From NCBI GenBank assembly GCA_903834835.1, contig CAILKO010000035.1, positions 248,539 to 312,538 of the forward strand: a DNA stretch of 64,000 bases. The letters are read 5' to 3'. The position numbers were made by a program, and so were the translations under genes. This document shows positions 46,104 through 62,928 of this stretch, piece after piece. Below the pieces are notes generated by a model. That model was not told where the DNA came from and did not search any database. It was given only the letters and a program-made list of their open reading frames with translations. This stretch comes from an uncultured Pseudomonadota bacterium (GTDB taxonomy: Bacteria > Pseudomonadota > Gammaproteobacteria > Burkholderiales > SG8-39). Positions within the stretch are counted from its first letter, which is position 1; each line of letters opens with the position of its first letter.

Positions 46104-46239
46104 GCAATGCGCCCCGATGAAGTGGACGGCGCGGACCGGGCGTGTAATCCGGATTCCGCATGCCTTGTGTATCCGTTGCTTGCCGCCGGCAGAGGACTTT
46201 CGTCTCTCGAAACCGCCTCTGCGGCATGGTGAATCGATT

Positions 46240-47063: not shown

Positions 47064-47729
47064 TCATGCCGCCGCGCACAGTGCGGCGAAGGGGGCCGTC
47101 CAGCCCACGATCGCCCCCTGGGCGCGGATCATCTCGATCGTCGCGCGCTTGAATTCCGGGAAGTAGCTCTCGGTCGCGTCCTCCACGAGCAGGCACTCGT
47201 AGCCGCGATCGTTCGCCTCGCGCATCGTGGTCTGCACGCAGACCTCGGTCGTCACGCCGGCGAAGAGGAGGTGGGTGATGCCCTTCAGGCGAAGGATGTC
47301 GCCGAGCGCCGTGGCGTAGAACGCACCCTTGCCGGGCTTCACGATTTCGATCTCGCCCGCAACGGGCGCGAGGCCGGGCACGAACGCGGCGCCCGCTTCG
47401 CCATCGATCAGGATGCGACCCATCGGACCCGCATCCCCGATACGCAGCCTCGGGTTGCCGCGCAGGCGCTTCGCAGGCGGACAGTCCGAGAGATCGGCGC
47501 GATGCGCCTCCCGCGTATGAACGACGAGCATGCCGCGTGCGCGGCACCACTCGAGCAGTGCATGCACGGTCGGCACGATCGCCCCGAGCAGCGCCACGTT
47601 GTTGCCGAGCGTCTCGCCGAAGCCGCCGGGCTCCACGAAATCGCGCTGCATGTCGATGCAGACGAGCGCGGTCCTTGACGGGTCGAATTCCCATGCGAAG
47701 GGCGCGGCCTCGATGCGGCTGACGGTCAT
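47064..47729 (-). CDS. Isochorismatase-fold cysteine hydrolase, candidate triuret hydrolase
   Basis: 221-residue cytoplasmic amidohydrolase of the isochorismatase superfamily. The catalytic triad Asp26 (CIDMQRDF), Lys131 (VKPGKGAF) and Cys164 ([10 protein letters not shown]) is intact. It is a paralogue of biuH (49345-50070), sharing [14 protein letters not shown], and ends the same operon, overlapping the ABC ATPase gene by 4 bp. Known: triuret hydrolase (TrtA) and biuret hydrolase (BiuH) are related members of this family and can be co-located. I infer that this is the triuret enzyme, releasing carboxybiuret and ammonia. An ureidoacrylate-type amidase is the main alternative. Confidence 0.7.
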
Positions 47730-49345
47730 GCGGGCTCCTCCTGGTGTTCGGCGCCGTGCCCGGCCATGCAGCGACCGATGACATCGATGTCCGCGCTGGC
47801 AGTGGCGGTCTCGTGCACGAGACGGCCTTCCGAGATCACGACGAGCCGGTCGGAGAGCTCGAGCAGTTCATCGAGGTCCTCGGACACGAGCAGCACCGCC
47901 GCACCGGCCGCGCGCGCCGCGAGGATGCGCGCATGGATCTCGGCCACTGCGGCAAAATCGAGACCGAATACCGGATTCGCGACGATCAGCACCGAGACCG
48001 GCCAGGACAGTTCGCGCGCGAGCACCGCGCGCTGCACGTTGCCGCCGGAGAGCGTGCCGATCGCGGCCCCCGGGCCGCGCGTCTTCACGCCGAATTCGCC
48101 GATCCAGCGCGCCGCCTGCGCAAGCATCGCGCCGCGCCGCAGCCAGAACCCGGAGGCGAGCGGGGCGAGATCGAAATTGCGGAAGGCCATGTTCTCGGCC
48201 ACGCTCATGCGCGGCACGCAGGCGTTGCGCAAGGGCTCCTCCGGCAGGCTGTAGACCCGGTGACGGCGCATCTCGGCGCGCGTCGCGCGATAGGGCGTGC
48301 CGTCGACGCGGATCTCGCCCGAGCGCGGCGCGCGCTGGCCGACCAGCGCCTGGACAAGCTCGCGCTGGCCGTTACCGGAGACCCCGGCTATCCCGAGTAT
48401 TTCCCCCGGACGCACCGCGAGCGACACGCGATTCACCGCAGGCTGGCCGATGTCGCTCTCCACGACGAGTTCGTTCAGCACCAGGCGCGGCGCGGCATCG
48501 GTCCCCTGAGCGCGCGGCAGTGACGCTTGCACCGCGTCGTCATCCTGCGAACGGCCCTGGGGCAGCTCGCGCTCGCCCACCATCATCCCCGCCATCTGCG
48601 CCGGCGTGAGCGCCGCAACGCGGCCCGATCCGGCGAGGCGTCCGCGGCGCAGCACCGACACCTCGTCCGCAAAACCTGTGACCTCGCGGAACTTGTGCGT
48701 AATCATGAGGACGGTCACCTGCCCGGCGCGCGCGAGCCCTTTCACCATGCCGAGGACTTCATCCGCCTCCGCCGGCGTGAGCACCGAGGTCGGCTCATCC
48801 AGGATCATGAAGCGTCGCTGCAGGTAGAGCTGCTTCAGGATCTCGACCTTCTGCTTCTCGCCCACCGCGAGCTGCGACACAGGTCGATCGAGCGGCACGC
48901 GGAAGGGCACCGTGTCCATGAAGGCCGCGAGCCGCGCGCGCTCCTTCGACCAGTCCAGCACGGCCGGCACGTCGCCGCGCGACATGACGAGGTTCTCGGC
49001 CACCGTCATGCTCGGCACCAGCGTGAAGTGCTGGTAGACCATGCCGATGCCGAGCGAGTGCGCATCATGCGGTGAGCGGATCGCCTGTTCGTGGCCGTCG
49101 ACCTGGATCTGGCCGCTATCGGGCGGATGAAAGCCTACGATGCACTTCACGAGGGTGCTTTTGCCGGCGCCGTTCTCGCCAAGCAGGGCGTGAAGGGAGC
49201 CCGGCGCGACGCGGATCGACACCTCCTCGAGCGCGGTGAATGCGCCGAAACGCTTCGTCATGCCCGTGATCTCGAGCCCCAGCGCATGATCCGGCAGCAC
49301 CGGCTGCGCCGGCTTCATGCGCATCATGATGCCTTCTTCGGCCAT
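47726..49345 (-). CDS. ABC transporter ATP-binding protein, BMP/nucleoside type (two ATPase domains)
   Basis: 539-residue cytoplasmic ATPase with two nucleotide-binding domains, as in BMP-family (nucleoside/simple-sugar type) importers. Domain 1 has Walker [10 protein letters not shown], the signature [14 protein letters not shown] and Walker [12 protein letters not shown]. Domain 2 has the usual weak P-loop ([10 protein letters not shown]), signature [15 protein letters not shown] and [12 protein letters not shown]. Its ATG shares a base with the biuH stop, and its stop overlaps the isochorismatase-fold gene. It works with the two permeases and BMP-type binding protein of this operon. Ligand inferred to be a ureido compound such as biuret or triuret. 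Confidence 0.92.
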
Positions 49346-50070
49346 CAGGCGCGCTCCGCTTCGGGCATGTCGGAGAGCGTCGCGCCGAGCACGCCCGAAT
49401 CGGCCACCGCACCGAATACACCGCCCTGCATGGTGACCATCTTCAGCGCTGCGGCGTGGTTGCCCGCATCCGTTGCAGCGGTGCAGTCCGAGAGAATCAG
49501 GCACTCGAAGCCGCGGTCGTTCGCCTCCCGCATCGTCGTGTGCACGCACACGTCGGTCGTGATGCCTGTCAGCACCAGATTGCGAATCCCGCGCGTACGC
49601 AGGATGAGCTCCAGGTCGGTGGCGCAGAACGAGCCCTTGCCGGGCTTGTCGAGTACGACTTCGCCGGGAAGCGGGGCGAGCTCCGGGATGATCTCCCAGC
49701 CCGGCTCGCCGCGCACGAGAATGCGGCCGCAGGGGCCGGGGTCGCCGATACCGATGCCAGCTGCGCCGATGCGGCGCGAGCGCCAGCGCTTGTTGTCGGG
49801 CAGGTCAGAGAGATCCGGGCGATGACCTTCGCGCGTGTGGATGATCGGAAAGCCGCGCGCCCGCATGAGCCCGAGCAGGCGGCGCAGGGGCGCCACCGGT
49901 GCGCGCGTGAGCGAGATGTCGTAGCCCATCTTGTCGACATAACCGCCGGGCCCGCAGAAATCGGTCTGCATGTCGATCACCATGAGCGCCGTGTTGGCCG
50001 GGCGCAGGTCGCCGTCCCAGGGCCAGGGGTAGGGATCTGCGGCAAGGTAGCGAGCCGGGACACCGGTCAT
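49345..50070 (-). CDS. biuH: Biuret hydrolase (isochorismatase-fold)
   Basis: 241-residue cytoplasmic cysteine hydrolase converting biuret to allophanate and ammonia. The whole protein has the BiuH pattern: [10 protein letters not shown] at the N-terminus, [20 protein letters not shown] with Asp33, [34 protein letters not shown] with Lys142, and [18 protein letters not shown] with Cys175. It overlaps the permease gene by 4 bp and the ATPase gene by 1 bp, deep in operon B. The product allophanate is the substrate of AtzF from operon A. Confidence 0.9.
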
Positions 50071-50987
50071 CGGACGATGCTCAGTTCGCCCGGCGCACCC
50101 GCGAGCGTGCGGGTCGGCGAGCAGGTGGCCAGCATGATCGCGAGGGTCAGCACGTAGGGCGCCGCGTTATAGAGGTAGTAGCCGGAGGTGATGCCCACGG
50201 ATTGCAGCGCCGGGCCGAGCGAGCCCGCGCCGCCGAACATCAGCGCGGCATAGAAGCAGTACACCGGGTTCCAGCGCGCGAAGATGACGAGCGCGACTGC
50301 CATGAGTCCCTGTCCGCTCGAGAGTCCCTCGGTCCAGCTGCCCGGGTAATAAAGCGACAGAAAGGAACCACCGACGCCCGCGAGCAAGCCGCCTGCCGCC
50401 GTGGCGAGCGTGCGCACGAGGTTCACGTTGTAGCCCATGGCACGCGCCGCATCGGAGCTGTCGCCGACCATGCGCAACACCAGGCCCCAGCGCGTGTTGC
50501 ACAACGCCCAGGCGAGCGCGAAGGCGAGCGCGATGCCGATCAGCAGCAGCGGACTCACCTGCAGCGCCGCCTGCACCTGCGGCAGCTCGCTCCAGCCGCC
50601 GAGCGAAAAGGCCGGAAGGTTGGGCGCCTTCGGCTGGATATAGGGTTTGCCGAGAAAGAACGCGAAGCCGGTGCCGAACAGCATGAGCCCGATGCCGACC
50701 GCGATGTCGTTCACGCGCGCGAGATTGCAGATGAGCCCGTGCAGCAGACCGAGCGCAAGGCCGGCAAATCCCGCGGCAAGCACGCCGAGCCAGGGATTGC
50801 CGCTTGCGAGCGAGACGGCATAACCCGCCATCGCGCCCATCACCATGATGCCTTCCAGCCCGAGGTTGATGCGCCCGCTCTTTTCAGTGATGCATTCGCC
50901 GAGGCTGACGAAGAGGAAGGGTGTACTGACGCGCAGCGCACCGCCGAGCACGCCCAGGGGCACGCCCCACCAGCCGAGGTCGGTCAT
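50067..50987 (-). CDS. ABC transporter permease, BMP/nucleoside type
   Basis: 306-residue inner-membrane permease with about eight hydrophobic segments (for example [40 protein letters not shown]). [20 protein letters not shown] and the cytoplasmic-loop motif [15 protein letters not shown] are typical of the second permease of these importers. ATG 50987 gives the normal N-terminus; an upstream extension is cysteine-rich and unlikely. It pairs with the permease at 51001-52074. Confidence 0.93.
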
Positions 50988-51000
50988 CGCCCGTTCCCGT

Positions 51001-52074
51001 TCATGCGCCCGCCTCCGCGCCGCGGAACAGGCGCATCCGTCCGTACAGCGTTTCACTCGCGAGGATCAGCAGGAAGGCCATGCCCTGCAATACAAGCACG
51101 GTCGCATCGGGCAGATCCAGACGCCGCTGCAGCATGCCGCCGGAGGCCGAGATGCCGCCTAGCAGCACCGCCACCGGCACGATGGCGAGCGGATTCTGGC
51201 GCGCGATGAACGCGACGAGGATGCCGGCGTAGCCGTAGCCGGCCATCAGCGAGGCATTGGCACTGCCGTGCACCGCCGCGACTTCCACCATGCCGGCGAG
51301 GCCCGAGGCCGCGCCACCGAAGAAACAGGCGCCGAGCACGAGTGCGCCGACGGGTAGCCCCGCGAGCCGCGCAGCGCGCGCATTGCCGCCGACCACACGC
51401 AAGGCGAAGCCCCAGGTCGTGTGCCGCACCAGCAGATAGGCGAGCACGCAGGCGGCGACGCCGAATATGAGACCCCAGTGCACATCCATGCCCGGGATGC
51501 TTCCGATCATGTTGGCCGTGCCGATCGGATCGGTGGAGGGCTTGTTCAGACTCGCCGGGTCGCGCAACGGCCCCTCGACGAGATGGTTGAACAGGGCCGC
51601 CGCGATATAGGTCAGCAGCAGGCTGGAGATGGTTTCATTCACGCCGCGGTATTGGCGCAGCGCCCCCGCCAGCAGTATCCACAGGCCGCCCGCGAGCATG
51701 CCGGCGCCGGCCATGGCGAGCTTCACGCCCGCCGGCGAGGCCTCACCGAGCAGATGCCCGGTGACCGCCGCAGCGAGGCCGCCCAGCGCGAGCGCGCCCT
51801 CGCTGCCGATCACCATCAGACCGGCCTGCGCGGGAATCGCCACGCAGAGCGCGGTAAGGATGAGCGGGGCTGCGCGCGAGAGCGTGTTCTGCCACGAAAA
51901 TGCGCTCGCGAAGCCGCCCTGCCAGATGAGTCCGTAGACGGCGAGCGGATCCTGCCCGAGCATGGCGATGAAAAGGCCGAACAGCAGCATCGCCGCGACG
52001 AGCGCTCCGACCGGAATCAGCAGCGCCTCGGCGGCTGGCCCGAGCGGACCCCGGCCTGTGGACGGCCCGTTCAT
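51001..52074 (-). CDS. ABC transporter permease, BMP/nucleoside type
   Basis: 357-residue inner-membrane permease with nine to ten hydrophobic helices. SRAAPLILTALCVAIPAQAGL and MVIGSEGALALGGLAAA, and VVGGNARAARLAGLPV, are family features. It starts 3 bp after the binding-protein stop and is followed by the second permease. Together they form the channel for the ligand delivered by the BMP-type binding protein. Confidence 0.93.
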   Translation of the reverse strand: MNGPSTGRGPLGPAAEALLIPVGALVAAMLLFGLFIAMLGQDPLAVYGLIWQGGFASAFSWQNTLSRAAPLILTALCVAIPAQAGLMVIGSEGALALGGLAAAVTGHLLGEASPAGVKLAMAGAGMLAGGLWILLAGALRQYRGVNETISSLLLTYIAAALFNHLVEGPLRDPASLNKPSTDPIGTANMIGSIPGMDVHWGLIFGVAACVLAYLLVRHTTWGFALRVVGGNARAARLAGLPVGALVLGACFFGGAASGLAGMVEVAAVHGSANASLMAGYGYAGILVAFIARQNPLAIVPVAVLLGGISASGGMLQRRLDLPDATVLVLQGMAFLLILASETLYGRMRLFRGAEAGA

Positions 52075-52077
52075 CGG

Positions 52078-53190
52078 CTAGACCTTGCCGACCACGCCCT
52101 CGACGAGATAGTTCATCTGCTCGAGCACCGGATCGGTCTGTTTCAGCGCGGCGCCGGCCGCGATGACCTCCTTGCCGGTGTTGTCCTTCAGCGGCCCCTT
52201 GAAGATCACGTAGTCGCCCTTCAGCATCGCGGCCTTGGTCGCATCCGCCTTCTTCTTCGCCGCATCGGGGACGGCCTTGCCATAGGCCGACATCTTCACA
52301 AAGCCTTCCTTCAACCCGCCGCGCACGAAATTCTTGAACGGCGCGCCCGAGAGCGCGTCCTTCACATGCTGCTGGTACACCGTGAGCCAGTTCCACTCCG
52401 CGCCGGTGAGATAGCCCTTGGGCGCGAGCGCCGCCTGGTTGGCGTGATAGCCGCAGGAATAGATGCCGCGCTTTTCCGCAGTCTCCACCACGACCTTCGG
52501 ACTGTCCACGTGGCAGGTGATCACGTCCACGCCCTGATCGACCATGCTGTTCACCGCCTCGGCTTCCTTCACCGGCAGCGACCAGTCCCCGGTCACGATG
52601 AGCTGGCAGGTGATCTTCGGGTCCACGCTGCGCGCACCCATGAGGAAGGCATTGCAGTTGCGCAGCACCTGCGGTATAGGCTTCGCGGCAATGAAGCCGA
52701 TCTTCTTCGATTTGCTCACGTGCGCCGCGACGATGCCGTTCAGGTACTGGCATTCGTCGATGTAGCCGAAGTAGCTGCCGGTGTTCTTGGGGTGCTTGCC
52801 CTCGGTCCACATGCCGCCGCAATGCGCGAAGCGCACCTTCGGATATTTCTCCGCCATCTTCAGCATGTGCGGGTCGAAATAGCCGAAGGAGGTCGGGAAC
52901 AGCAGCGTCGCGCCGTCCTGCTCGATCATCGAGGCCATGGTCTTCTGCACGTCGGTCGTCTCGGGCACCTTCTCCTGCTCGACCACCTTGATGCCCGGCA
53001 GCTTCTTGAGCGCGGCGGCGGCCTGGGCCTGAGCCTGGTTGTAGCCGTAGTCGTCGCGCGGTCCGACATAGATCACCCCCACCGTGAGCTTGGTCTGGGC
53101 CCAGGCCCAGCCCGGGATGAGGGACAGCGCGGATGCCCCGGAGATGACGCGCAGCGCGTCGCGGCGTGTGTAACTGCGTTTCGATGCCAT
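52078..53190 (-). CDS. BMP-family ABC transporter substrate-binding protein
   Basis: 370-residue periplasmic binding protein of the basic membrane protein (BmpA/PnrA-like) family. The N-terminus has a twin-arginine motif (YTRRDALRVISG), so Tat export is possible. KLTVGVIYVGPRDDYGYNQAQ and FDPHMLKMAEKYPKVRFAHC are typical of the fold, and ADCIT-like NSMVDQGVDVITCHVDSPKV follows. ATG 53190 has GGGAGCTCAC upstream. Family members bind nucleosides or purines; here operon context suggests biuret, triuret or a related compound. Confidence 0.92.
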   Translation of the reverse strand: MASKRSYTRRDALRVISGASALSLIPGWAWAQTKLTVGVIYVGPRDDYGYNQAQAQAAAALKKLPGIKVVEQEKVPETTDVQKTMASMIEQDGATLLFPTSFGYFDPHMLKMAEKYPKVRFAHCGGMWTEGKHPKNTGSYFGYIDECQYLNGIVAAHVSKSKKIGFIAAKPIPQVLRNCNAFLMGARSVDPKITCQLIVTGDWSLPVKEAEAVNSMVDQGVDVITCHVDSPKVVVETAEKRGIYSCGYHANQAALAPKGYLTGAEWNWLTVYQQHVKDALSGAPFKNFVRGGLKEGFVKMSAYGKAVPDAAKKKADATKAAMLKGDYVIFKGPLKDNTGKEVIAAGAALKQTDPVLEQMNYLVEGVVGKV

Positions 53191-53234
53191 GTGAGCTCCC
53201 TGTTGTGTTGGACCGGATGGGCTGTAGCGGCGGG

Positions 53235-54098
53235 CTAGAAGTGGTACTCGGCCCGCAGCATCGGCGTCTTCGCGAACGAACCGGCGTTGCCGGGCAGGCT
53301 CGCGTCGTTGCCGAACTTGTTCTTCCAGTACTGATAGGCCACCCCGAGTTTCAGGGTGCCCTTCGGCCCGCCGAACATGGGACCGGCGTCGTACATGAGC
53401 TTGGCCGTGACGTTGGTCTCGGCCTTGGTCTGCCCGCCGAACTCGTCCTTGCCCTTGGAGCCGATGAACATTGCGAGACCTTCGAACGAGAGTCCGGAGC
53501 CGCCGATCGGCAGACCCCATATGGCCTCGAACATCGGGTGGACCTTGTAGCTGTAGCGCGAGACACCCGTGGGCGCATTGCTTTCCTTCAACAGCAGCAC
53601 GCTCAGGTTCAGCATCCCGGGCACGTCCATCATGAAGGTCGGCCCGAACACGAACATGCGCTTCTTCGAGGCGTAGCCGTCGTTCTTGGTGTTGAAGTCG
53701 AAGCCGAAGGTTCCGCCCACGCCCTTCACCGCGCCGAACTTGTAGGCCTGGCCGGTCACCTTGCTGAAGTCCACCGTGTTGCGGTACACGGCATAGACCT
53801 CCTGCGCGCCCTCGGCGCCGCCGGCTGCCAGGTCATTCTTGTCCGACAGAAGCAGATCGGCCGCCACGACCTGGGTGCCGTACTTGTAGCCGCCCACATG
53901 GGTGAAGCCGAAGATGTTCTTGCCGATGTCGGTGCGGCCGAACGGCTCCGCGAAGCGGCTGCCGGTGCTCCAGCTGATCGAGGTGTCGCTCCATTCCTCG
54001 GCGGCGGCCGGGGCGGTCGCGGCGATCATGGCTGCGCCGACCAGCACGGCGCGCACGGTGGAGCGGTTCGCAGAGTTGTGTGTTCTTGAAATCGGCAT
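53235..54098 (-). CDS. Tsx-like outer-membrane channel protein
   Basis: 287-residue protein with a signal peptide (RAVLVGAAMIAATAPAAA) and a beta-barrel profile ending in aromatic residues (MLRAEYHF). It resembles nucleoside-specific channel (Tsx/OmpK-like) proteins of this length (SRFAEPFGRTDIGKNIFGF, then alternating hydrophobic strands). It is the first gene of operon B; ATG 54098 has GGGGAA upstream, and a TTG at 54137 is an unlikely alternative. A sigma-54 promoter lies 67 bp before the ATG. Role inferred: passage of the ureido substrate through the outer membrane. Confidence 0.78.
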   Translation of the reverse strand: MPISRTHNSANRSTVRAVLVGAAMIAATAPAAAEEWSDTSISWSTGSRFAEPFGRTDIGKNIFGFTHVGGYKYGTQVVAADLLLSDKNDLAAGGAEGAQEVYAVYRNTVDFSKVTGQAYKFGAVKGVGGTFGFDFNTKNDGYASKKRMFVFGPTFMMDVPGMLNLSVLLLKESNAPTGVSRYSYKVHPMFEAIWGLPIGGSGLSFEGLAMFIGSKGKDEFGGQTKAETNVTAKLMYDAGPMFGGPKGTLKLGVAYQYWKNKFGNDASLPGNAGSFAKTPMLRAEYHF

Positions 54099-54164
54099 TC
54101 TCAGGTTCCCCAGTAAGGTTCGAGTCGCGCCCGGCAACTCTCTCCCTCCCCGGGTGATACCTAC

Positions 54165-54179
54165 GCATAGAACGTGCCA
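54165..54179 (-). promoter_or_regulatory. Sigma-54-type promoter (-24/-12) for operon B
   Basis: Minus-strand TGGCACGTTCTATGC, matching TGGCACG-N4-TTGC at all but one position with exact GG-GC spacing. Predicted start is about 55 nt before the Tsx-like ATG. A perfect NtrC half-site GGTGCA (54331-54336) lies about 150 bp upstream. Confidence 0.75.
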
Positions 54180-54257
54180 AACCCGGCGCCCGCTGCACGG
54201 CAGTTTCCGGAGCGGACCGGATCGAGAGTATTCCCCCTGCGCCCGCGATCCTTGTTC

Positions 54258-54283
54258 TTCTAGTAGACCATCTGGTATACAAG
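54258..54283 (-). promoter_or_regulatory. Tandem GntR-type operator, operon B
   Basis: Minus strand: two TNGTNTACNA units, TTGTATACCA and TGGTCTACTA, separated by GA. The 26-bp site matches the one upstream of atzF at 19 of 26 bases in the same orientation. It lies 79 bp upstream of the -24 element and 77 bp from the gntR stop. The likely ligand-responsive regulator is GntR at 54360-55079. Confidence 0.65.
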
Positions 54284-54359
54284 TTAGTACACAGGGAATG
54301 CCCCGTCCCCGCGCACGCGCGTCCCCAAACGGTGCACGGATTTCGCCGGGTTGCGGCGG

Positions 54360-55079
54360 CTAGCGGGTGCCGCGCGGGCGCGAGCGCGCTTCGAACAGCG
54401 TGCTGAGGGTGATCTTGCGCACCTCGATCTTGCTCTGCTCGATATGGGCGCGCAGCAGCATCGCGGCCTGGTCCGCCTTGTAGTGCATCACCGCGCGCAG
54501 GATCTTGGCGTGTTCGAAGTAGGTCGCAGAGATGCGGTCGGAACGGGTGAAGTCCAGGCGGCGCACCACGCGGATCCGCTCGGTGACATCGGCATGCACG
54601 CGCGAGATTTCCGCATTGCCCGCAGCGCGCACCAGCGAGGCGTGGAACTCCTCGTCCAGCGCCCCGACCTCGCGCGGATTCTCCAGCCGGCCGGAGACCG
54701 GCACCAGCCATGTCGCCCGCAGCCGGTCGAGCTCGGCATCGCTACCCCGGCTGCGTGCGCAGAGCCGCGCAACGCTCGCGAGCTCGAGCGTGATGCGCAG
54801 GTCGTACAGATCGTCCAGTTTGGCGAAATCGAGCGGCCGGACGTACCAGCCGGATTTCGCCGCCACATCGAGAAAGCCCTCGTCGCGCAGCCGGAAGAGT
54901 GCCTGACGTACCGGCGTGCGACTCACGCCGAAGCGCAGTCCGATCTCTGCCTCCGACAGGCGGTCGCCCGGCACGACGCGGAAATCGTTCATCTCGGCCT
55001 TCAGCCGCTGGTAGATGCGATCGGCGAGATTCGAGCGTGCGCCCGGAGCGCCACGCGTGGTCGTGCGTGCTGTCACCAT
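54360..55079 (-). CDS. GntR/FadR-subfamily transcriptional regulator
   Basis: 239-residue regulator. The N-terminal winged helix-turn-helix (residues about 15-85) reads LADRIYQRLKAEMNDFRVVP, then LSEAEIGLRFGVSRTPVRQA. The C-terminal FCD ligand domain (90-225) has LDEEFHASLVRAAGN and EHAKILRAV, with the metal-binding histidines. It is the last gene of operon A, 57 bp after atzH, so it is likely autoregulated. Two matching tandem GntR-like operators in the two promoter regions suggest that it controls operons A and B, with a ureido compound as inducer. Confidence 0.9.
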   Translation of the reverse strand: MVTARTTTRGAPGARSNLADRIYQRLKAEMNDFRVVPGDRLSEAEIGLRFGVSRTPVRQALFRLRDEGFLDVAAKSGWYVRPLDFAKLDDLYDLRITLELASVARLCARSRGSDAELDRLRATWLVPVSGRLENPREVGALDEEFHASLVRAAGNAEISRVHADVTERIRVVRRLDFTRSDRISATYFEHAKILRAVMHYKADQAAMLLRAHIEQSKIEVRKITLSTLFEARSRPRGTR

Positions 55080-55136
55080 GGGTTCATTGTATGCAGGACG
55101 GGGTGCGAGACCGTCGCCGTGTCTCCGTCCGTCGCA

Positions 55137-55517
55137 TCAGCCACCCGCGATCAGGCTGACGTGCGCGGCGACCACGCGCCAACCCTCGGGAAAGCGCACC
55201 CAGGTCTGGCTCTGACGACCGGTGAGCGGGTTGCCCGAGCGGTGGAACTCAGTCATCGCGGTCGCAAAGTCGGTGCCATAGGTGGTGATCACGATGCGGC
55301 GCAGCGCGCGCGCAAGGCCGGCGGGCGAGCGCGCGGCCCGGAATGCGCGTATCGCCTCGATACCGACGAGATTCTCGCCCGTGCCATAGCGCACCGTGAA
55401 TTCGGAGGTCCAGAACAGCTCGTCGAGCACTTCGACGCGGTTGTTCACCAGCGCATCCTCATAGCGCTCGAATACCGCGCTCATCTCCGCAAGCACTTCG
55501 GGGCGGTTGATCTCCAT
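55137..55517 (-). CDS. atzH: AtzH-like protein (SnoaL-like fold)
   Basis: 126-residue small cytoplasmic protein of the DUF3225/AtzH-like group with the NTF2/SnoaL fold ([26 protein letters not shown], split here as [13 protein letters not shown] and VLDELFW; then [20 protein letters not shown]). AtzH is reported to decarboxylate and hydrolyse 1,3-dicarboxyurea to allophanate, joining AtzEG to AtzF. It lies between atzE and gntR, the classic neighbourhood. HpxZ of purine-degradation clusters is the same family and an alternative name. Confidence 0.85.
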
Positions 55518-55573
55518 GTTCGGTACGACAGGCTCCTCGGACAGGGTTGACGGCAGGCGACGCGCGGCCCGTC

Positions 55574-57031
55574 TCAGAGACGCGCGAGCGGCGCGCTCGC
55601 CACGCCGCCTGCTTCCAGCACCGCGGCCACGCGCATGACGAGATCCTCGCGCCAGGGGGCGGCGATGACTTGCACGCCGACGGGCAGCGCGGCTCCGGAT
55701 TCGTCCGGTTCGGGCCAGACCGGCACTGCGCAGACCGGCAGGCCGATGCAGGAAATCGGCTGCGTCAGCAGACCGGTGTTCGGCCGGGTCGGCAGACGCG
55801 CGCCGTTGATCTCCATGGTTTCGCTGCCGATCGGCGTCGCAGGATGCGGCGTGGCGGGCGCGATCAGCACATCCACGCCCTCGAGTACCTGCGCCACCTC
55901 GCGTGCGAAGCGCAGCCTCGCGCGCTGCGCCTGGTTCACCCAGGCTGCCGGCAACAGCGCGCCGGCGATGAAGCGATCGCGCGACAGCGGTTCGAAGTCC
56001 GCAGCCCGCGCACGCAGGTCCGGCAGGTGCAGTGCGCCGCCCTCCGAATTCCCGATCAGGAAGGCGGCGGCCCGCGCGCGGACAGCGCCCTGCAGCGTGA
56101 GGCGGCGCTCCGTGCCGAGCGCGCGCGCCACGCGCGACACCGCGGCGCGCGCCTGCGGACCGGCGTTGTCGGAAAACCAGCCGTCCAGCACCGCGATCCG
56201 CAGGCCTCGAACCCCGCCCGAGAGCTGGGGCATCAGCGGTTCCGCAGGCCGGCTTGCGCAGGCGGCATCGTGCGGGTCATGGCCCTGCATGGCGTCATAG
56301 GCGAGCGCGAGGTCGGTGACGCTGCGCGCCAGCGGACCGAGTACATCCAGGCTGTGGACGAATGGGTAGGACCCGGTGCGCGGCAGTCGGCCGTAGGTCG
56401 GCTTGAGCCCGAATACGCCGCAAAGCGAGGCCGGCACGCGGATGGAACCGTTGGTGTCGGAGCCGAGCGTGAGCGGCACCTGGCCGGCGGCGAGCGCGGC
56501 GCCGGACCCGCCCGAGGATCCGCCCGCAATACGCGTCGTGTCGTGCGGGTTGCGCACCGGCCCATAGTGCGTGTTCTCCGTCGTGAAGCCGTAGGCGTAC
56601 TCATCCATGTTGAGCGCGCCCACGAGCACCGCGCCTGCGGCTTCGAGCCGCTGCACCAGCAACGCGTCGGCGCGCGCGGGCGCATTCGAGAGTCCGATGA
56701 TCGAGCCGGCGCGGGTCGGTATGCCCGCGATGTCGAACAGGTTCTTCACAGCGAAGGGCACGCCGAGCAGGGGCAAAGCACGCAAGGCCGTCGCCGCTTC
56801 GCCTTCTGCACCAAGCGCCGCATCCAGGCTGCGCGCCCGCGCCATCGCGCGCTCCGCAAGCACGTCGGTGAATGCGTTGACGGTGCTGTCGGTGCCCGCG
56901 ATGCGCGCGAGGCTTGCGCCGACGATTTCGCCAACACGGGCCTCACCTTCGCGCACCGCGCGCGCCACGCCCGAGGCGCTCGCGCCGTGCCAGTCGCGCC
57001 CGCTTTTTGCTCCGCCTGCGATGGCGTTCAT
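55574..57031 (-). CDS. atzE: 1-Carboxybiuret hydrolase subunit AtzE (amidase-signature)
   Basis: 485-residue amidase-signature hydrolase, catalytic subunit of the AtzE-AtzG complex. The Ser-cisSer-Lys triad is Lys96 ([14 protein letters not shown]), Ser172 (GGSSGGSG) and Ser196 (TNGSIRVPA). TEDTHYG-like [19 protein letters not shown] is typical of AtzE. ATG 57031 overlaps the atzG stop by 4 bp (ATGA), so subunits are made together. It removes ammonia from carboxybiuret to give 1,3-dicarboxyurea. HpxY is the related enzyme of purine clusters. Confidence 0.9.
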
Positions 57032-57234
57032 GTTGCGCTGCTCCGTGGCGTTACGGGCAGGAAACCGGCGGCGGATTCGTCCTCCGGCCTGAGCGTCTGC
57101 ATGTTCACCAGATCGGCATAACCCGCGGCGAGCGCAAAGTAGGCGAGCACGCCGGGACGATGTTCCGGCGCGATCGGCAGTGCGAGCGCTGCGGCCGCGG
57201 CATCGACATAGGCTTCGATCTCTTCGGGCGTCAT
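57028..57234 (-). CDS. atzG: AtzG-like small subunit of the AtzE complex
   Basis: 68-residue helical protein of the DUF4089/AtzG-like family (MTPEEIEAYVDAAAAALALP, then PGVLAYFALAAGYADLVNM). AtzG is needed for stability and activity of AtzE in known heterotetramers. It sits directly before atzE with a 4-bp overlap, the diagnostic arrangement. It is easily missed because of its size. Confidence 0.9.
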   Translation of the reverse strand: MTPEEIEAYVDAAAAALALPIAPEHRPGVLAYFALAAGYADLVNMQTLRPEDESAAGFLPVTPRSSAT

Positions 57235-57279
57235 TCCGGTCCTCCGGTTGCGCAGGCTGCATGTCGGCGCGGATGCATG

Positions 57280-58098
57280 CTAGCGCCGGACCTCGCGCTG
57301 GAATATTTCCAGGCTGCGTTTCTTGGTATGCACGAATCCGGGCTCGGACAGCGTCGCGACGGTACGCGGGCGCGGGTCCTCATAAGGAATGATCTCCGCG
57401 ATCCTGGTCGGCCGCTTGGTGAGCAGCAGGATGCTGTCGGCCAGATACACCGCCTCCTCGAGATCGTGCGACACGAGCAGCATGGTGGTCCCGGTCTGGA
57501 TGAACACCTCCTGCAGCTTCTCGCGGATGAAAAGCGTCATCTCGTAGTCGAGCGCGGAGAAGGGTTCGTCCAGAAACACCACCTCGGGTCGCGGCGCGAG
57601 TGCGCGCATGATCGAGGCCGTCTGCTGCTGGCCGCCCGAGAGTTCGTAGGGGTAACGCTTCAGATCGAAGCGCACATCGAAGGACGCCACCAGTTCTTCC
57701 ATCCGGCGGTCCACCTCGGCCTTCGACTTCCGCTCGAGGACCAGCGGGTAGGCGATGTTGTCGATGGTGCGCATCCAGGGGAACATCGCCTCGCGGTAGT
57801 TCTGAAACACGTAGCCGATGCGCGTTTCAGCGAGCGACTTGCCGTCGAACAGGATCTCGCCCCCGTCGATCGGGATCAGCCCGGCAATCATGTTGATGAG
57901 GGTCGATTTCCCGCAGCCGTTCGGACCGAACACCGAGACGATCCTGCCCTTGGGAATATCGAGATCGAAGTCCTCGTACAGCGGCCACCCGGCGAAATAC
58001 TTGGTCAGACCGCGGATGGTGATGTGGGTCCCCGGCGGGCCGGGGACGAAAGGGCGGGCGGGTACATCCGCCACCACGGCTGCGTTCTGCGGTCTCAT
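57280..58098 (-). CDS. ABC transporter ATP-binding protein, NitT/TauT type
   Basis: 272-residue ATPase of the nitrate/taurine/urea-like importer group. Walker A is GPNGCGKST, the signature LSGGQQQTASIMRAL, Walker B VVFLDEPFSALDYE, and the switch His lies in LLVSHDLEEAVYLAD. ATG 58098 follows CAGGGAGTG. It energises the permease and binding protein encoded just upstream and lies 45 bp before atzG in operon A. Confidence 0.93.
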   Translation of the reverse strand: MRPQNAAVVADVPARPFVPGPPGTHITIRGLTKYFAGWPLYEDFDLDIPKGRIVSVFGPNGCGKSTLINMIAGLIPIDGGEILFDGKSLAETRIGYVFQNYREAMFPWMRTIDNIAYPLVLERKSKAEVDRRMEELVASFDVRFDLKRYPYELSGGQQQTASIMRALAPRPEVVFLDEPFSALDYEMTLFIREKLQEVFIQTGTTMLLVSHDLEEAVYLADSILLLTKRPTRIAEIIPYEDPRPRTVATLSEPGFVHTKKRSLEIFQREVRR

Positions 58099-58138
58099 GC
58101 GGGGCACTCCCTGTTCCGGTCGCGGGCAGCGCGGGGAC

Positions 58139-58981
58139 TCATCGGCCGCTCCAGTGGACGATGCGCTTCTCGGCAACCAGGAAAAGCACGTTCAGCGCAT
58201 ACCCGAGCGCACCGGCCGACAGGATCGCGGCGTACATGCTTTTCACGTTCAGCACCTGCTGGGCGTCGATGATGCGATGCCCCAGACCGTTGTCCGATCC
58301 GATGAACATCTCGGCCACGATCACGATGACGAGCGCCATCGAGACCGCGGATCGCAGACCGACAAAGGTGGGCTGCAGACTCTCCCAGATCAGCACGTCC
58401 TTGAATATCTGCCAGCGCGAAGCGCCCATCACCCGTGCCGCCATCACGCGTTGCTTGCGCGCGTTGATCACGCCGTAAGCGCTGTTGAAGACCACGATCA
58501 GCAAGGCGCCAAACGCTGCGATCGCCACTTTGTTGACGTTCGATACGCCGAAGATCAGCAGAAACAGCGGAATCAGCGCCGAGGACGGAGTGGAACGAAA
58601 GAAATCGATCAGGAATTCCACGCTGCGGTAGGCGCGCTCGTTGCTGCCGAGCAGCACGCCGATCGGCACGCCGGCCACGGCTGCAATCATGAAAGCCTGC
58701 AGCGTGCGCCACAGCGTGACCGCGAAGTCGCCGAGCAAGGGGCCTCCGGCAAGGCCCGTTACCAGCGTGTACAGGGTTGCGGACGGCGTCGGCAGCAGCA
58801 CCACCTTCACCAGGCCGAAGCGCACGACGAGGTCCCAGATGATGAACAGCAGCACCGGACCCACCGCCGGCAGCATCCGGCCCCAGGGCAGGCGCCGGCG
58901 CGGCACAGACGCCGGCGAGCGCCCCCCCTGTTCCCAGGGACTTGCGCCGGATGGCGACGTTTCCGGGACGGCGTCGTTCAT
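58139..58981 (-). CDS. ABC transporter permease, NitT/TauT type
   Basis: 280-residue inner-membrane permease with about six helices (MLPAVGPVLLFIIWDLVVRF at the start). The EAA-like loop VMAARVMGASRWQIFKDVLI matches the family. It starts 3 bp after the binding-protein stop. The first 40 residues are a charged Pro/Ser-rich cytoplasmic lead. The ligand is presumably a ureido compound. Confidence 0.93.
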   Translation of the reverse strand: MNDAVPETSPSGASPWEQGGRSPASVPRRRLPWGRMLPAVGPVLLFIIWDLVVRFGLVKVVLLPTPSATLYTLVTGLAGGPLLGDFAVTLWRTLQAFMIAAVAGVPIGVLLGSNERAYRSVEFLIDFFRSTPSSALIPLFLLIFGVSNVNKVAIAAFGALLIVVFNSAYGVINARKQRVMAARVMGASRWQIFKDVLIWESLQPTFVGLRSAVSMALVIVIVAEMFIGSDNGLGHRIIDAQQVLNVKSMYAAILSAGALGYALNVLFLVAEKRIVHWSGR

Positions 58982-58984
58982 CGC

Positions 58985-60025
58985 TCAACCCTTGTAGAGC
59001 AGCGGTTCGACCAGCACACGCTTCTCGAAAATGCCCTTCTCGTGAAACAGGTCGTAGAACTTCTGGAAGTGCGCGATATCGCTCGCCTTGAACTGGGTGC
59101 TGAACAGGTAGTCCGACATGGGCACTTCGGCGGTAAGCGCGCCTTCGATCGCGGTATAGCCTTTCAGGAAGGGACGTGCCTCGGCCGGCTTCGTCTTCAC
59201 CAGTTCGACGCCCTTCGCGTAGGCGGCGATGTAGCGCTTCGTCTCCGAGGGGTACTTCTGGATGAAGGCCGAAGTCAGGCTCGCCGCACCGCCATGCCAC
59301 GGTGCAAGCGGATCGCCCAGAATGTATTTCGCGACGACACCGACTTCGAGTGTGCGCGTGGTACCGCTCAGGCGGCCGACGGTTCCGGTCGGCTCGAGCG
59401 TGTAGGCGGCGTCGATCTGGCCGGCCGCAACAGCTGCCACATGCTGGCCGAGCGGCAGCTCGGTGATGCTCAGCGTGCCGGCTCCGGCGCGTTCCAGCAT
59501 CACACGTGCGAGCATCACGTTCTGGATTCCAGGGCCCGAAGCCACGCGTTTGCCCTTGAGATCTGCGAGCGTCTTGACCGGGCTGTCTTTCGCGACAATG
59601 AATTCGTCCAGCACGAATTTCGCGTTGGTTGGATTGGTGCAGATGATCTTGAACAGGCCCGGCTGCGCGATTTCTCCGATCGCGAGCACGGCTGATGCCG
59701 TTCCGTTGGAGCTGCCCTCCGCACGTCCCGAGAGCATCGCTTCCATCACTTGCTGCGCGCTCGCGAACTTGAGCGGCTCAACATCCAGACCGGCCTCCTT
59801 GAAGTAGCCCTTCTCGAGCGCCGCAAAGAATGGCAGGCCGGAGGCCACGGGCCAGAATCCGATGCGTATCTTCGGTCCGGTCTGGGCGCGCAGGATGCCG
59901 GGTGCGGCAAGCAGCGACCCTGCGGCCACGCCTCCGGCAGCGTTCAGCAGTTTCCTGCGCGCGGGATTCGCCGGCGCCGTAGGGTCCGCTTCAGTGGGAG
60001 TTTGCTTGTCCTTGGATGGGCTCAC
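58985..60025 (-). CDS. ABC transporter substrate-binding protein, NitT/TauT type
   Basis: 346-residue periplasmic binding protein (SsuA/THI5-like fold). GTG start with AAGGAGA upstream. The long N-terminus carries a twin-arginine-like ARRKLLNAAGGVAAGSLLAA, so Tat export is possible. KIRIGFWPVASGLPFFAALE and GYFKEAGLDVEPLKF are typical openings of the family. It lies 30 bp after atzF in operon A. Ligand inferred from context. Confidence 0.92.
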   Translation of the reverse strand: MSPSKDKQTPTEADPTAPANPARRKLLNAAGGVAAGSLLAAPGILRAQTGPKIRIGFWPVASGLPFFAALEKGYFKEAGLDVEPLKFASAQQVMEAMLSGRAEGSSNGTASAVLAIGEIAQPGLFKIICTNPTNAKFVLDEFIVAKDSPVKTLADLKGKRVASGPGIQNVMLARVMLERAGAGTLSITELPLGQHVAAVAAGQIDAAYTLEPTGTVGRLSGTTRTLEVGVVAKYILGDPLAPWHGGAASLTSAFIQKYPSETKRYIAAYAKGVELVKTKPAEARPFLKGYTAIEGALTAEVPMSDYLFSTQFKASDIAHFQKFYDLFHEKGIFEKRVLVEPLLYKG

Positions 60026-60055
60026 GTCGATCTCCTTTTGCTGGGTTTCGGAATG

Positions 60056-61909
60056 TCAGGGTCGGGATGCTGCGGTAACGGATGCGGCGACCTGGAGCGC
60101 CGTCAGATAGGCACGCCAGCCGCCATAGCGGCTCACATCGGCCGCGCCCTCGAGCGCATGCGCTTCGCACAGGAAGCCGTGCACCTGTCGCCCGTCGGCA
60201 AGTTCCACGCTTCCGAGACCGAGTGGCGGCGGGATCAGCGCGAGAAAGGATCCCACCTCCCTCAAGGGCATCTCCCAGATTTCGAGCTCGATGGCACTGC
60301 CGCCTTCGCGCGTGCGCACCAGACCGGGCTTCGGCGGCACGGTGCCGGGGAGCGCGTAGAGACGATAGTGCGCGCCTGTGCGCGCGGTCTCGAGCAGACG
60401 CGCGCCGCGTTCGGTGAGCTGATAGTTGAGCGGCATGCCGGACAGATGCGCGCCGACGACGGCGATCGGCATACCCGCCAGAGCTTCCGGTGTGCGCAGC
60501 CTCAGGCCGTGCGGCGGCGGACCGTAGCGGGCGGCGGACGCGCCGAGGGCGAGCCCGGCATGCGCCTGCCAGGCGGCGCCGAGCCGTGCAAGCGCCGCGT
60601 CGTACCCCGCCGGCGCAATGAGCGTAATGCCGAAGGGAAGCTGACCGGGTTCGCGCGCTGCGGGCAGAGCCAGCGCACACCAGCCAAGCAGATTGACGAA
60701 GTTCGTATAGGTTCCCAGGGCGCTGTTGGCCGCGATCGGATCCGCGGCCACATCGGCAAAGCTGGGATGACCGGGCGCACTCGGCACCATGAGAACGTCT
60801 GCTTCGTCCCACACCGCTGCCGCTACGCGCTTGAGCGCGCGCAGCCGGTACTGCGCTTCGAACGCATCGGTCGCGCTGTACTGTTCGGCGGCGGAGATCA
60901 CATGCTTTACCACTGGATCGATCGCCTCGGGCGCAGCCTCGAACCAGGGTCGCACCGCGCTATGGCGCTCGGCGACCCAGGGACCTTCGTAGAGCAGATC
61001 GCCCGTCCGGTAAAGCGGCGTGAAATCCACCGGGTGGATGACCTGCCCCATCGAGCGCGCGAGATCGAGCGCCTGCTTCCAGGCGGAGGCGTAGGCGCCG
61101 CCCGGCGCGAAGCGCGGTTCGCGCGGCACGCCGATGCGCAAGGCGCGCTCGGGCCAGTGCGCCGGCCCGGGATGCCAGTCACTGTAGGCATCGGACGCAT
61201 CCGGTCCTTCGATCGTGGCGAGTACGTGTGCGGCATCGTCGACCGTAAGCGCGAAGACCGACACGCAATCGAGACTGCGACAAGCTGGCAGCACACCGCT
61301 TGTGCCAACACGCCCGCGCGTGGGTTTGAGCCCGACGATCTGATTGAAAGCCGCCGGGATGCGACCCGATCCCGCAGTGTCGGTTCCCAACGCAAAGGGC
61401 ACGAGCCCGGCCGCGACGGCGACCGCCGAGCCTGAGCTGGACCCGCCGCTGACATGGGCCGCACTGAATACGGAGCTCGGCTGCCCGTAGGGTGAACGCG
61501 TGCCGACCAGGCCGGTCGCGAACTGGTCGAGATTGGTCTTGCCGATCCAGATCGCCCCGGCGGCCTCGAGCCGCGACACCACGCCGGCCGAAACGCGCGG
61601 AACCGAAACGAGCTCCCGACACGCGGCCGTCGTCGGCACACCGGCGATGTCGATGTTGTCCTTGACCGCGTAGGGCACGCCGTAGAGCGGCAGCCGTTGC
61701 AGCAGCGCTTCCCGGTCGGTGATGCCGTCGGCGAGCGCGCCGAGCCGCGCGAGCTGGCGCGCGAGGGCGTCGTCACCCGCAAGGTAGATCCAGACGGCAT
61801 CGGGTCCCTCCTCACGCGCCCGGCGCAGGCAGTCCGCGAGCAGCTCCCGGGGATCCGCACCCTCGCGATAGGCCTGCAGCCAGTCCGCAACGGTAAGCGG
61901 CCGCGTCAT
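60056..61909 (-). CDS. atzF: Allophanate hydrolase AtzF
   Basis: 617-residue amidase-signature enzyme converting allophanate to ammonia and CO2, the last step of urea, biuret and triazine nitrogen release. The triad is Lys83 (AVKDNIDIAGVPTT), Ser157 (SGGSSSGS) and Ser181 (TDTAGSGRIPA). The C-terminal 170 residues form the second allophanate-hydrolase domain (MPIAVVGAHLSGMPLNYQLT, then YRLYALPG). Start ATG 61909 gives the AtzF-type length; upstream sequence is regulatory. It is the first gene of operon A and serves products of both operons. Confidence 0.94.
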   Translation of the reverse strand: MTRPLTVADWLQAYREGADPRELLADCLRRAREEGPDAVWIYLAGDDALARQLARLGALADGITDREALLQRLPLYGVPYAVKDNIDIAGVPTTAACRELVSVPRVSAGVVSRLEAAGAIWIGKTNLDQFATGLVGTRSPYGQPSSVFSAAHVSGGSSSGSAVAVAAGLVPFALGTDTAGSGRIPAAFNQIVGLKPTRGRVGTSGVLPACRSLDCVSVFALTVDDAAHVLATIEGPDASDAYSDWHPGPAHWPERALRIGVPREPRFAPGGAYASAWKQALDLARSMGQVIHPVDFTPLYRTGDLLYEGPWVAERHSAVRPWFEAAPEAIDPVVKHVISAAEQYSATDAFEAQYRLRALKRVAAAVWDEADVLMVPSAPGHPSFADVAADPIAANSALGTYTNFVNLLGWCALALPAAREPGQLPFGITLIAPAGYDAALARLGAAWQAHAGLALGASAARYGPPPHGLRLRTPEALAGMPIAVVGAHLSGMPLNYQLTERGARLLETARTGAHYRLYALPGTVPPKPGLVRTREGGSAIELEIWEMPLREVGSFLALIPPPLGLGSVELADGRQVHGFLCEAHALEGAADVSRYGGWRAYLTALQVAASVTAASRP

Positions 61910-61960: not shown

Positions 61961-61986
61961 ATCTAGTATCCTAGTTGGTAGACAAG
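61961..61986 (-). promoter_or_regulatory. Tandem GntR-type operator, operon A
   Basis: Minus strand: TTGTCTACCA then AC then TAGGATACTA; the first is a full TNGTNTACNA match, the second has one mismatch. It overlaps the -12 box and runs through the predicted start site of the atzF promoter, a classic repressor position. It matches the operon B site at 19 of 26 bases. Confidence 0.65.
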
Positions 61987-62000
61987 CAGGACACGTGCCA
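61986..62000 (-). promoter_or_regulatory. Sigma-54-type promoter (-24/-12) for operon A
   Basis: Minus-strand TGGCACGTGTCCTGC, matching TGGCACG-N4-TTGC at all but one position with exact spacing. Predicted start is about 65 nt before the atzF ATG. A perfect NtrC half-site TGCACC (62088-62093) lies about 90 bp upstream. The 292-bp gap from atzF to the next gene is otherwise featureless. Confidence 0.75.
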
Positions 62001-62514: not shown

Positions 62515-62928
62515 ATCCATCGAAGGCCGATTTTCCTCCCCGCGGCCTGCCCGCACCACTCCCATCGCAAGGGCGACCCACCCCCCGATGAAGGCGATGC
62601 CGCCGAGCGGCGTGACCATGCCTGTGGCGCGCGGCGCCCCGAGGGCGAGCGCGTAGAGGCTGCCGGAGAACAGCACGATGCCCGTAGCGAGCAGCCAGCC
62701 GGCCGTGGCGAGCCAGCCGCCCGGTGCGGCCGTTTGCCGGCAGACGAGACCGACCGCGAGCAGGCCGAGCGCATGCCAGAAGTGATACTGCACGCCGGTC
62801 TGATAGAGGGCGATGGCCTCCGGTGCAAGGCGCTCGCGCAGGCCGTGCGCGCCGAAGGCGCCGATCGCCACGGCCAGGGCGGCGAACGCGGCGCCGAGGA
62901 TGAGAAAGGTCTTTGCCCGACCGATCAC
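62512..62928 (-). CDS. DUF423-family small membrane protein
   Basis: 138-residue inner-membrane protein of the DUF423 (YgdD-like) family with four hydrophobic helices. FLILGAAFAALAVAIGAFGA followed by HGLRERLAPEAIALYQTGVQ and YHFWHALGLLAVG are diagnostic. The GTG start overlaps the metH stop by 4 bp, so it is translated with metH. Function unknown. Its last codon and stop lie in palindrome copy 4. Confidence 0.92.
   Translation of the reverse strand: MIGRAKTFLILGAAFAALAVAIGAFGAHGLRERLAPEAIALYQTGVQYHFWHALGLLAVGLVCRQTAAPGGWLATAGWLLATGIVLFSGSLYALALGAPRATGMVTPLGGIAFIGGWVALAMGVVRAGRGEENRPSMD

Follow-up and report, generated by a model that had tools for sequence, protein, structure and literature searches.

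The region examined here, positions 47064 to 61909 of a 64,000-nucleotide window (the whole stretch of DNA analysed) from an uncultured bacterium of the order Burkholderiales, is a predicted triuret degradation locus of 15 genes, all located on the minus strand and organized in two operons (Table 1). The host genome (G000) is 88.9% complete and is distributed over 74 contigs. The gene order is atzF, three genes for an ATP-binding cassette (ABC) importer of the NMT1/SsuA type, atzG-atzE, atzH, gntR, a gene for a conserved protein matching no family, genes for a BMP-type binding protein and two permeases, biuH, the gene for the BMP-type ATPase, and trtA. A first-pass annotation of this DNA had listed biuH, a second isochorismatase-fold hydrolase, atzG-atzE, atzH and atzF. 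These gene calls were right, in coordinates as in the integrity of the catalytic residues, but the two ABC importers, the GntR regulator and the conserved protein had been omitted.

The two isochorismatase-fold hydrolases can be told apart by six positions at which triuret and biuret hydrolases differ (PMC7948467). The trtA product (47064-47729) features all six triuret hydrolase residues (F35, N41, A134, E160, Y187 and I205), has an intact Asp-Lys-Cys triad along with E72, K132 and Q202, is 67% identical to 6XIX and, at 247 bits, falls below the cut-off of 370 set for the NCBIfam BiuH model NF050097. The biuH product (49345-50070) carries the six residues of biuret hydrolases (Y, Y, S, D, T and V), retains the D/K/C triad and is 72% identical to 6AZO. 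The TrtA signature is present in 42 of the 43 TrtA-side rows aligned (6XIX and the window included) and is kept in relatives down to 55% identity; it may therefore also cover related specificities, and it separates TrtA from BiuH better than from a sister enzyme. The exception, L083:10001-10645, in which the catalytic Cys is replaced by Ala and the diagnostic residues are W, H, A, D, Y and Q, is a possible non-catalytic relative. TrtA-type proteins that are 57-62% identical to window TrtA and keep the six residues adjoin atzF in L084 and L087, and are found as second copies near an atzF match in L105 (position 4533) and L106 (position 6194).

The remaining enzymes are equally well preserved. 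AtzF has its catalytic Lys83-Ser157-Ser181 in place, and the Lys-Ser-Ser triad of AtzE (K96, S173 and S196) is intact. The AtzG-like partner directly precedes AtzE, and the atzG stop codon overlaps the atzE start codon (ATGA). Window AtzH features all nine pocket residues named in PMC6219798, including Tyr22, Arg46 and Arg66 (numbering of that paper, the Tyr22 of which is position 19 of the pADP-1 protein), as well as Leu53. AtzH is the sole enzyme of the locus whose best structural match is not its solved counterpart, since the uncharacterized 2RCD (166 bits) ranks above AtzH 6BJT (151 bits).

The absence of AtzD, reported by the first-pass annotation, holds for the genome at large: a search for PF09663 returned no match, while the same search was positive in 3/3 control genomes known to carry AtzD. 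This absence is provisional, because the genome is only 88.9% complete. The accompanying suggestion that the locus is more likely fed with triuret or biuret than with an s-triazine is supported both by the AtzD search and by the TrtA and BiuH signatures. The alpha subunit of urease is encoded elsewhere in the genome.

Substrates, importer cargo and regulation are predicted here from features read in the sequence, namely gene content, gene order, catalytic and diagnostic residues, Arg66 and sigma-54-like elements. With a probability of about 0.8, the window holds a complete gene set for the triuret pathway, and the encoded proteins would take up triuret and biuret and break both compounds down to ammonia and CO2, most likely in response to nitrogen limitation. 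TrtA would convert triuret to carboxybiuret and NH3, AtzEG would convert carboxybiuret to 1,3-dicarboxyurea and NH3, AtzH, being of the Arg66 type, would decarboxylate 1,3-dicarboxyurea to allophanate, and AtzF would break down allophanate to NH3 and CO2. Carboxybiuret has a half-life of approximately 20 min in vitro (PMC7948467). As no lone-type AtzH or cupin (see below) was recognised in the window locus, BiuH would be limited to biuret that is either imported or formed by spontaneous loss of CO2 from carboxybiuret. The genes for both branches from carboxybiuret are present, as had been proposed earlier, but the proposal needs amending in that AtzH is of the AtzE-partner type and biuret is left to spontaneous decarboxylation or import.

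Table 1. Genes and promoter-like elements of the triuret locus (window coordinates).
Feature	Position	Strand	Evidence
sigma-54-like -24/-12 element TGGCACGTGTCCTGCT	61985..62000	-	91 bp before atzF start; 11/12 consensus positions
atzF, allophanate hydrolase, both domains	60056..61909	-	NCBIfam TIGR02713 741 bits (cut-off 511), profile 2-562 of 563; 4GYR 547 bits
NMT1/SsuA-type substrate-binding protein, ABC importer	58985..60025	-	Pfam NMT1 67 bits (cut-off 20.5); NCBIfam SsuA family 93 bits, under cut-off 163.5
ABC importer permease (NMT1/SsuA-type importer)	58139..58981	-	Pfam BPD_transp_1 79 bits
ABC importer ATPase (NMT1/SsuA-type importer)	57280..58176	-	Pfam ABC_tran 104 bits; NCBIfam at most 176 bits, among the matches listed (25) all under cut-offs
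atzG, small partner subunit	57028..57234	-	Pfam PF13318 (AtzG-like) 49.7 bits, cut-off 24
atzE, 1-carboxybiuret amidohydrolase (predicted)	55574..57031	-	6C62 AtzE 537 bits
atzH, AtzE-partner type decarboxylase (predicted)	55137..55517	-	Pfam AtzH-like 197 bits; Tyr22, Arg46, Arg66, Leu53; 64% identity to pADP-1 AtzH
gntR, FCD-type transcriptional regulator	54360..55079	-	Pfam GntR and FCD; homologues recur in triuret islands
sigma-54-like -24/-12 element TGGCACGTTCTATGCG, before second operon	54164..54179	-	81 bp before 53235-54098 gene; 10/12 consensus positions
conserved protein	53235..54098	-	54% identity, 268 bits to pADP-1 L113:4380-5162; homologues in several triuret loci
BMP/PnrA-type substrate-binding protein	52078..53190	-	Pfam Bmp 148 bits; 38% identity to pADP-1 BMP-type protein
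BMP-type importer permease 1	51001..52074	-	Pfam BPD_transp_2 104 bits; homologues in other triuret islands mostly 56-79% identical
BMP-type importer permease 2	50067..50987	-	Pfam BPD_transp_2 125 bits
biuH, biuret hydrolase (predicted)	49345..50070	-	NCBIfam BiuH NF050097 412 bits (cut-off 370); 6AZO 388 bits
BMP-type importer ATPase, two ABC domains	47726..49345	-	Pfam ABC_tran, 2 stretches
trtA, triuret hydrolase (predicted)	47064..47729	-	6XIX (triuret hydrolase) 314 bits vs 178-204 for biuret hydrolases

The locus is not unusual. In a sample of 250 genomes of the order, 25 carry a TrtA match of at least 63% identity. AtzF was found in all 25, compared with 42 of the 225 others, and AtzE in 18 compared with 14 (Fisher p 1e-13, a value that kinship makes only a guide). 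In eight fetched loci of this sample (L063, L068, L071, L075, L076, L097, L098 and L101), the atzGEH genes come directly after trtA on the same strand, as they do in four named Alphaproteobacteria (L142, L185, L197 and L202). Named TrtA loci were represented by the best 80 of at least 570 by TrtA likeness, which is not a random sample; 17 of these, including Variovorax, Hydrogenophaga, Caenimonas, Ramlibacter and Polaromonas, feature atzE, a BMP-type gene, biuH and trtA on one strand in the window order. In 4/17, atzF is in view before atzE, most stretches ending sooner. The gntR gene usually lies behind trtA in these loci, whereas it lies behind atzH in the window, and no homologue of the 53235-54098 gene was recognised in the 17. 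The gene for the NMT1/SsuA-type binding protein is also present in other triuret islands. Many triuret islands (L121, L125, L129 and many named loci) have a formamidase (FmdA) gene inserted before biuH or trtA, and none was recognised in the window. Loci with atzF and atzE but neither trtA nor biuH in the fetched stretch were also identified (L059, L061, L065, L066, L070, L072, L094, L095 and L100); the genomes of L072, L095 and L100 carry trtA on a different contig.

The gene arrangement itself is already in print. Betaproteobacterial clusters described in PMC6219798 comprise genes for an allophanate hydrolase, an ABC transporter, atzGEH, further ABC genes and “amidase enzymes”, the substrate being left open. 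By their text description, these clusters (Fig. 6C and S3 of that paper) have the same order as the window; the amidases are not named in that text and correspond to TrtA and BiuH in the window. AtzEG is named as another carboxybiuret route in PMC7948467, and a limited literature search met no reading of the arrangement as a triuret island. The island is a variant of the published triuret pathway with AtzGEH at the carboxybiuret step; it is real, common, functionally coherent and ordinary in kind, and close to the common triuret island of the Comamonadaceae.

What is new is that AtzGEH, a lone AtzH-family protein or a cupin interchange at the step after carboxybiuret. Of the best 80 named loci, 56 extend at least 8 kb before and at least 3 kb behind trtA. 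AtzE is found in 22 of these, an AtzH-family gene without AtzE in 14, a cupin in 15 and none of the three in 5, and the cupin never occurs together with AtzE or an AtzH-family gene. Most lone AtzH-family genes are found no further than about 100 bases behind trtA, a place taken by the cupin in Rhizobium 3841 and Sulfitobacter. A cupin directly behind trtA, with no AtzE or AtzH recognised, is found in 16 of the best 80 loci, mostly in Rhizobiales and Rhodobacterales. Cupin loci include L121:12662-13015 (Rhizobium 3841), L125:12722-13006, L131, L155, L170, L177, L187, L189-L191, L193, L195, L196, L198-L201 and L205. Taxonomy partly confounds the modules, as the cupins are alphaproteobacterial here; yet the four alphaproteobacterial loci named above have atzGEH, and L146, L168 and L171 a lone AtzH. 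The cupin is a candidate non-homologous carboxybiuret decarboxylase, and the lone AtzH behind trtA is a putative TrtB.

Residue 66, which docking places in the substrate pocket (PMC6219798), likely tells two versions of the AtzH decarboxylase apart. In the AtzH tree, 20 of 25 lone copies fall outside the AtzE-partner clade, which has a support of 92 in the Shimodaira-Hasegawa-like approximate likelihood ratio test (SH-aLRT). In this discovery set, Arg66 is present in 56/56 AtzH proteins with AtzE at the locus and in 0/20 lone copies outside the clade. Among the lone copies inside the clade, L108, L162 and L174 have no AtzE at the locus and carry Leu66; the other two, L138 and L182, carry Arg66 and, although no full AtzE was recognised there, were excluded from the lone class because they lie at contig edges. 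Arg96 also varies in lone copies, and the other seven pocket residues are common to all, save a change of Phe94 to Tyr in 3/56.

Genomes sampled at the class and phylum levels yielded 46 stretches, three of them without an AtzH match. All 33 AtzH proteins with AtzE within 6 kb carry Arg66, a count that includes L244, which seems to repeat the discovery locus L067. Cys66 is found in three of the 10 copies without AtzE, each of them a lone copy in a triuret-type island (behind trtA in two cases, with no trtA in the stretch in the third); the seven others, located elsewhere, have Arg. The rule that no AtzE means no Arg66 failed in these seven copies and was narrowed to genes directly behind trtA. 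Further samples were centred on the families of two lone-type carriers, G178 and G119, and residue 66 of the new members was not inspected beforehand. Arg66 is found in 15/15 copies with AtzE; at trtA without AtzE, 28/29 are non-Arg, the exception (L349) being at a contig edge. With neither AtzE nor trtA, 45/47 have Arg66, while L338 and L339, behind a formamidase gene, have Cys. Both new samples include the genomes G900 (L282/L337) and G119 (L284/L339), and identical sequences were counted once in pooling.

Pooling gave 215 AtzH sequences, reduced to 208 by dropping identical copies and matches of at most 90 residues. Each was classed by the gene directly before atzH, with AtzE counted at an identity of at least 45%, within 600 bp and on the same strand. 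Arg66 is present in 95/95 distinct proteins directly behind AtzE and in 0/44 directly behind TrtA; beyond the discovery set, the figures are 44/44 and 0/28. In other contexts, Arg66 occurs in 0/5 copies behind AtzF in trtA loci, 0/2 behind formamidase, 14/16 behind an ABC ATPase (L162 and L174 being the exceptions) and 46/46 unassigned copies. The 53 copies of the lone class display at least eight different residues in place of Arg66, and all 155 non-lone copies (95 + 46 + 14) have Arg. Leu53 tracks context less strictly, as all 95 proteins behind AtzE have Leu and 31/44 of those behind TrtA do not. Arg66-type AtzH genes also adjoin amidase genes whose products share just 30-35% identity with AtzE (L276, L279, L301, L314, L328-L334 and L354-L359), probably indicating another AtzH partner enzyme and pathway.

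Dicarboxyurea, the AtzEG product, has two carboxylates, and carboxybiuret, the TrtA product, has one; the Arg66 pattern fits a difference in specificity. Our broader proposal, which is tentative and falls a little short of even odds, is that the AtzH/HpxZ family comprises two enzymes split by residue 66. Proteins with Arg66, encoded beside an AtzE-type amidase, would decarboxylate two-carboxylate substrates (dicarboxyurea and N-carboxyoxamate), and the non-Arg proteins encoded alone behind trtA would be carboxybiuret decarboxylases feeding BiuH. Islands would swap AtzGEH, lone AtzH and cupin, and the atzGEH genes of pADP-1 would have been drawn from natural triuret islands.

Other readings of the locus may be set against that of a single triuret pathway branching through AtzEG. 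The window AtzH might also, or mainly, convert carboxybiuret to biuret (TrtB activity), in which case BiuH would carry most of the flux and AtzEG would be a side branch. Such a role is suggested by the 44 distinct lone AtzH-family proteins encoded directly behind trtA, by islands L162 and L174, which have atzH and no recognised atzGE, and by the catalytic Tyr22 and Arg46 common to both types. It is nevertheless distinctly unlikely: window AtzH sits behind atzE and keeps Arg66 and Leu53, Arg66 separates the AtzE-adjacent from the TrtA-adjacent proteins without exception, and the copies that have no atzE at the locus (L108, L162 and L174) have Leu66. Given Arg66 and Leu53, window AtzH most likely serves the AtzEG branch. 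A very doubtful alternative is that two systems adjoin, the second operon (BMP-type importer, BiuH and TrtA) handling triuret and biuret, and the first (atzGEH and importer) handling oxalurate or another ureide in the manner of hpxXYZ. NCBIfam labels the window AtzH protein HpxZ (200 bits, cut-off 135), Klebsiella hpxXYZ is homologous (AtzE homologue, 51-52%), and AtzEGH loci that lack trtA are frequent in the order. Arg66 cannot separate AtzH from oxalurate HpxZ, as HpxZ proteins carry it too, and the AtzE tree alone does not fix the substrate, as Klebsiella HpxY also neighbours rows from trtA loci. Yet the first operon is headed by AtzF, which uses allophanate, window AtzE belongs to a clade of eight rows all derived from trtA loci (SH-aLRT 99), and atzGEH directly follow trtA in the eight loci of the order sample. 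No HpxW, the enzyme of the oxamate step, was recognised in the locus, and the genome offers no clear candidate for this partner in an oxalurate system, because its sole PF01019 protein, encoded elsewhere, is only 29-30% identical to HpxW references. With HpxW not found and AtzF in its place, an oxalurate system for atzGEH is disfavoured. We take the cysteine hydrolase of pMET-2 to be the guanylurea hydrolase described in PMC9800807; its six diagnostic positions read Y, M, A, D, G and I, and its residues 132 and 202 are changed, in contrast to F, N, A, E, Y and I with E72, K132 and Q202 in the 47064-47729 product. These differences speak against a guanylurea hydrolase identity for the latter, and the triuret type suggested for it by the first-pass annotation is the better supported prediction. 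The isochorismatase family includes several specificities, and guanylurea hydrolases are up to 65% identical to other members (PMC9800807); that the product is a guanylurea hydrolase or another amidase of this family, rather than a triuret hydrolase, is highly improbable.

The covariation of Arg66 and AtzE could also reflect two old AtzH lineages residing in different operons, with no bearing on the substrate. We consider this unlikely, as residue 66 lies in the docked pocket and Arg66, invariant in the 155 non-lone copies, is replaced in at least eight ways in the 53 lone ones, as expected after a lost constraint. Moreover, L108, L162 and L174 group with AtzE-type sequences and precede a BMP-type gene, the usual place of atzH in AtzE-type islands, yet lack Arg66. 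Several observations nevertheless speak for old lineages or otherwise count against the interpretation favoured here. The context label changes only four times on the AtzH tree, with one independent pair on well-supported branches, and a single lone clade is compatible with the approximately unbiased (AU) test (p 0.145). Such a clade appears in 0/200 bootstrap trees (bootstrap not settled), and well-supported branches force at least two changes, but tree proof of repeated Arg66 loss was not obtained. Arg66 is kept in 60 AtzH copies without a recognised AtzE directly before them. Arg66Ala and Arg66Lys were made in PMC6219798, and neither is among the five AtzH variants listed there as impaired; the need of Arg66 for dicarboxyurea is therefore not established. 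In addition, the TrtA diagnostic residues stem from a single paper and its alignment, the genome is incomplete, and some genomes lacking TrtA have loci that combine AtzEGH with AtzF, so that the module can serve another substrate.

Sigma-54-like elements were scored as -24/-12 motifs with at least 10/12 consensus positions within 250 bp before a gene start. Counts leave out the window, two duplicate loci and genes cut by the locus end, and expectations derive from random stretches of the same loci. In TrtA loci, 44 of 80 BMP-type genes are preceded by such an element, compared with 0.95 expected; the corresponding figures are 3/35 for AtzF (0.5 expected), 2/106 for TrtA (1.95) and 2/34 for AtzE (0.55). 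Over the whole window, the number of matches does not exceed chance (19 found, 26 expected), and the window's elements are supported only by their position and by the conservation before the BMP-type gene. Because elements precede many of the BMP-type genes and both window operons, and because the pADP-1 operons are sigma-54 dependent (PMC6834077), nitrogen-limitation control is likely.

The 53235-54098 protein matches no Pfam or NCBIfam family, and none of its hits among solved structures is credible. That it is a Tsx-like outer-membrane channel is a guess, which gained no support from these searches. The island is flanked on the minus strand by genes of other kinds. Just past trtA, 43773-46406 encodes a protein with two GAF domains, a PAS domain and an adenylate/guanylate cyclase domain; upstream of the island, 62925-63827 encodes a vitamin B12-dependent methionine synthase activation domain, either stand-alone or the end of a larger gene.

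According to PMC6219798, the atzGEH genes may pre-date the cyanuric acid operon, their earlier role being left open. Our reading would give them a natural, pre-herbicide job, the handling of triuret-derived carboxybiuret. It also provides a testable one-residue prediction for the little-studied DUF3225/AtzH family and points to the cupin as a possible substitute for the enzyme in rhizobia. Triuret is a fertilizer impurity, and in work on fertilizer and soil nitrogen, residue 66 and the neighbouring gene together would tell the route used by a genome.

Among known systems, the trtA-biuH-trtB-atzF pathway of Herbaspirillum sp. BH-1 (PMC7948467) and of floodplain ammonia oxidizers (PMC12625717) shares with the window the TrtA and BiuH diagnostic residues, AtzF and the BMP-type importer; a GntR regulator is listed among the genes of biuH contigs (PMC12625717). 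In contrast, the window has atzGEH in a neighbouring operon and a second importer, and behind its trtA no lone decarboxylase gene was recognised. The hpxWXYZ oxalurate operons of Enterobacteriaceae encode homologues of the small subunit and of the amidase as well as a homologous HpxZ that carries Arg66, but have HpxW where the window has AtzF, and the Klebsiella stretch shows no TrtA or BiuH match. A plasmid of Acidithiobacillus caldus (L120:306-12006) carries in one run genes for xanthine dehydrogenase, ureidoglycolate lyase, a ring-opening amidohydrolase, atzGEH homologues and a gamma-glutamyltransferase/HpxW-type protein, and looks like a purine-to-oxalurate cluster. An hpx-like cluster on a 27,595-base contig is found in two genomes (L067, G062:C29; L244, G418:C33), likely through shared contamination or mis-binning.

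The cyanuric acid locus of pADP-1 from Pseudomonas sp. ADP (atzRSTUVW/atzDGEHF; PMC6219798, PMC6834077) shares atzG-atzE-atzH-atzF with the window, at identities of 59% (AtzE), 64% (AtzH) and 51% (AtzF), and has atzD and a LysR gene where the window has trtA, biuH and GntR. Like the window, it includes a BMP-type importer and a homologue of the 53235-54098 gene, which adjoins the gene for the BMP-type binding protein of the plasmid. The importer proteins are only 34-40% identical and do not look recently borrowed from triuret islands. The AtzE of pADP-1 is placed in a 14-row clade (SH-aLRT 100) to which trtA loci contribute 12 rows and AtzD loci two. Given this grouping and the shared 53235-54098 homologue, the AtzGEH module of the herbicide plasmid may stem from triuret islands.

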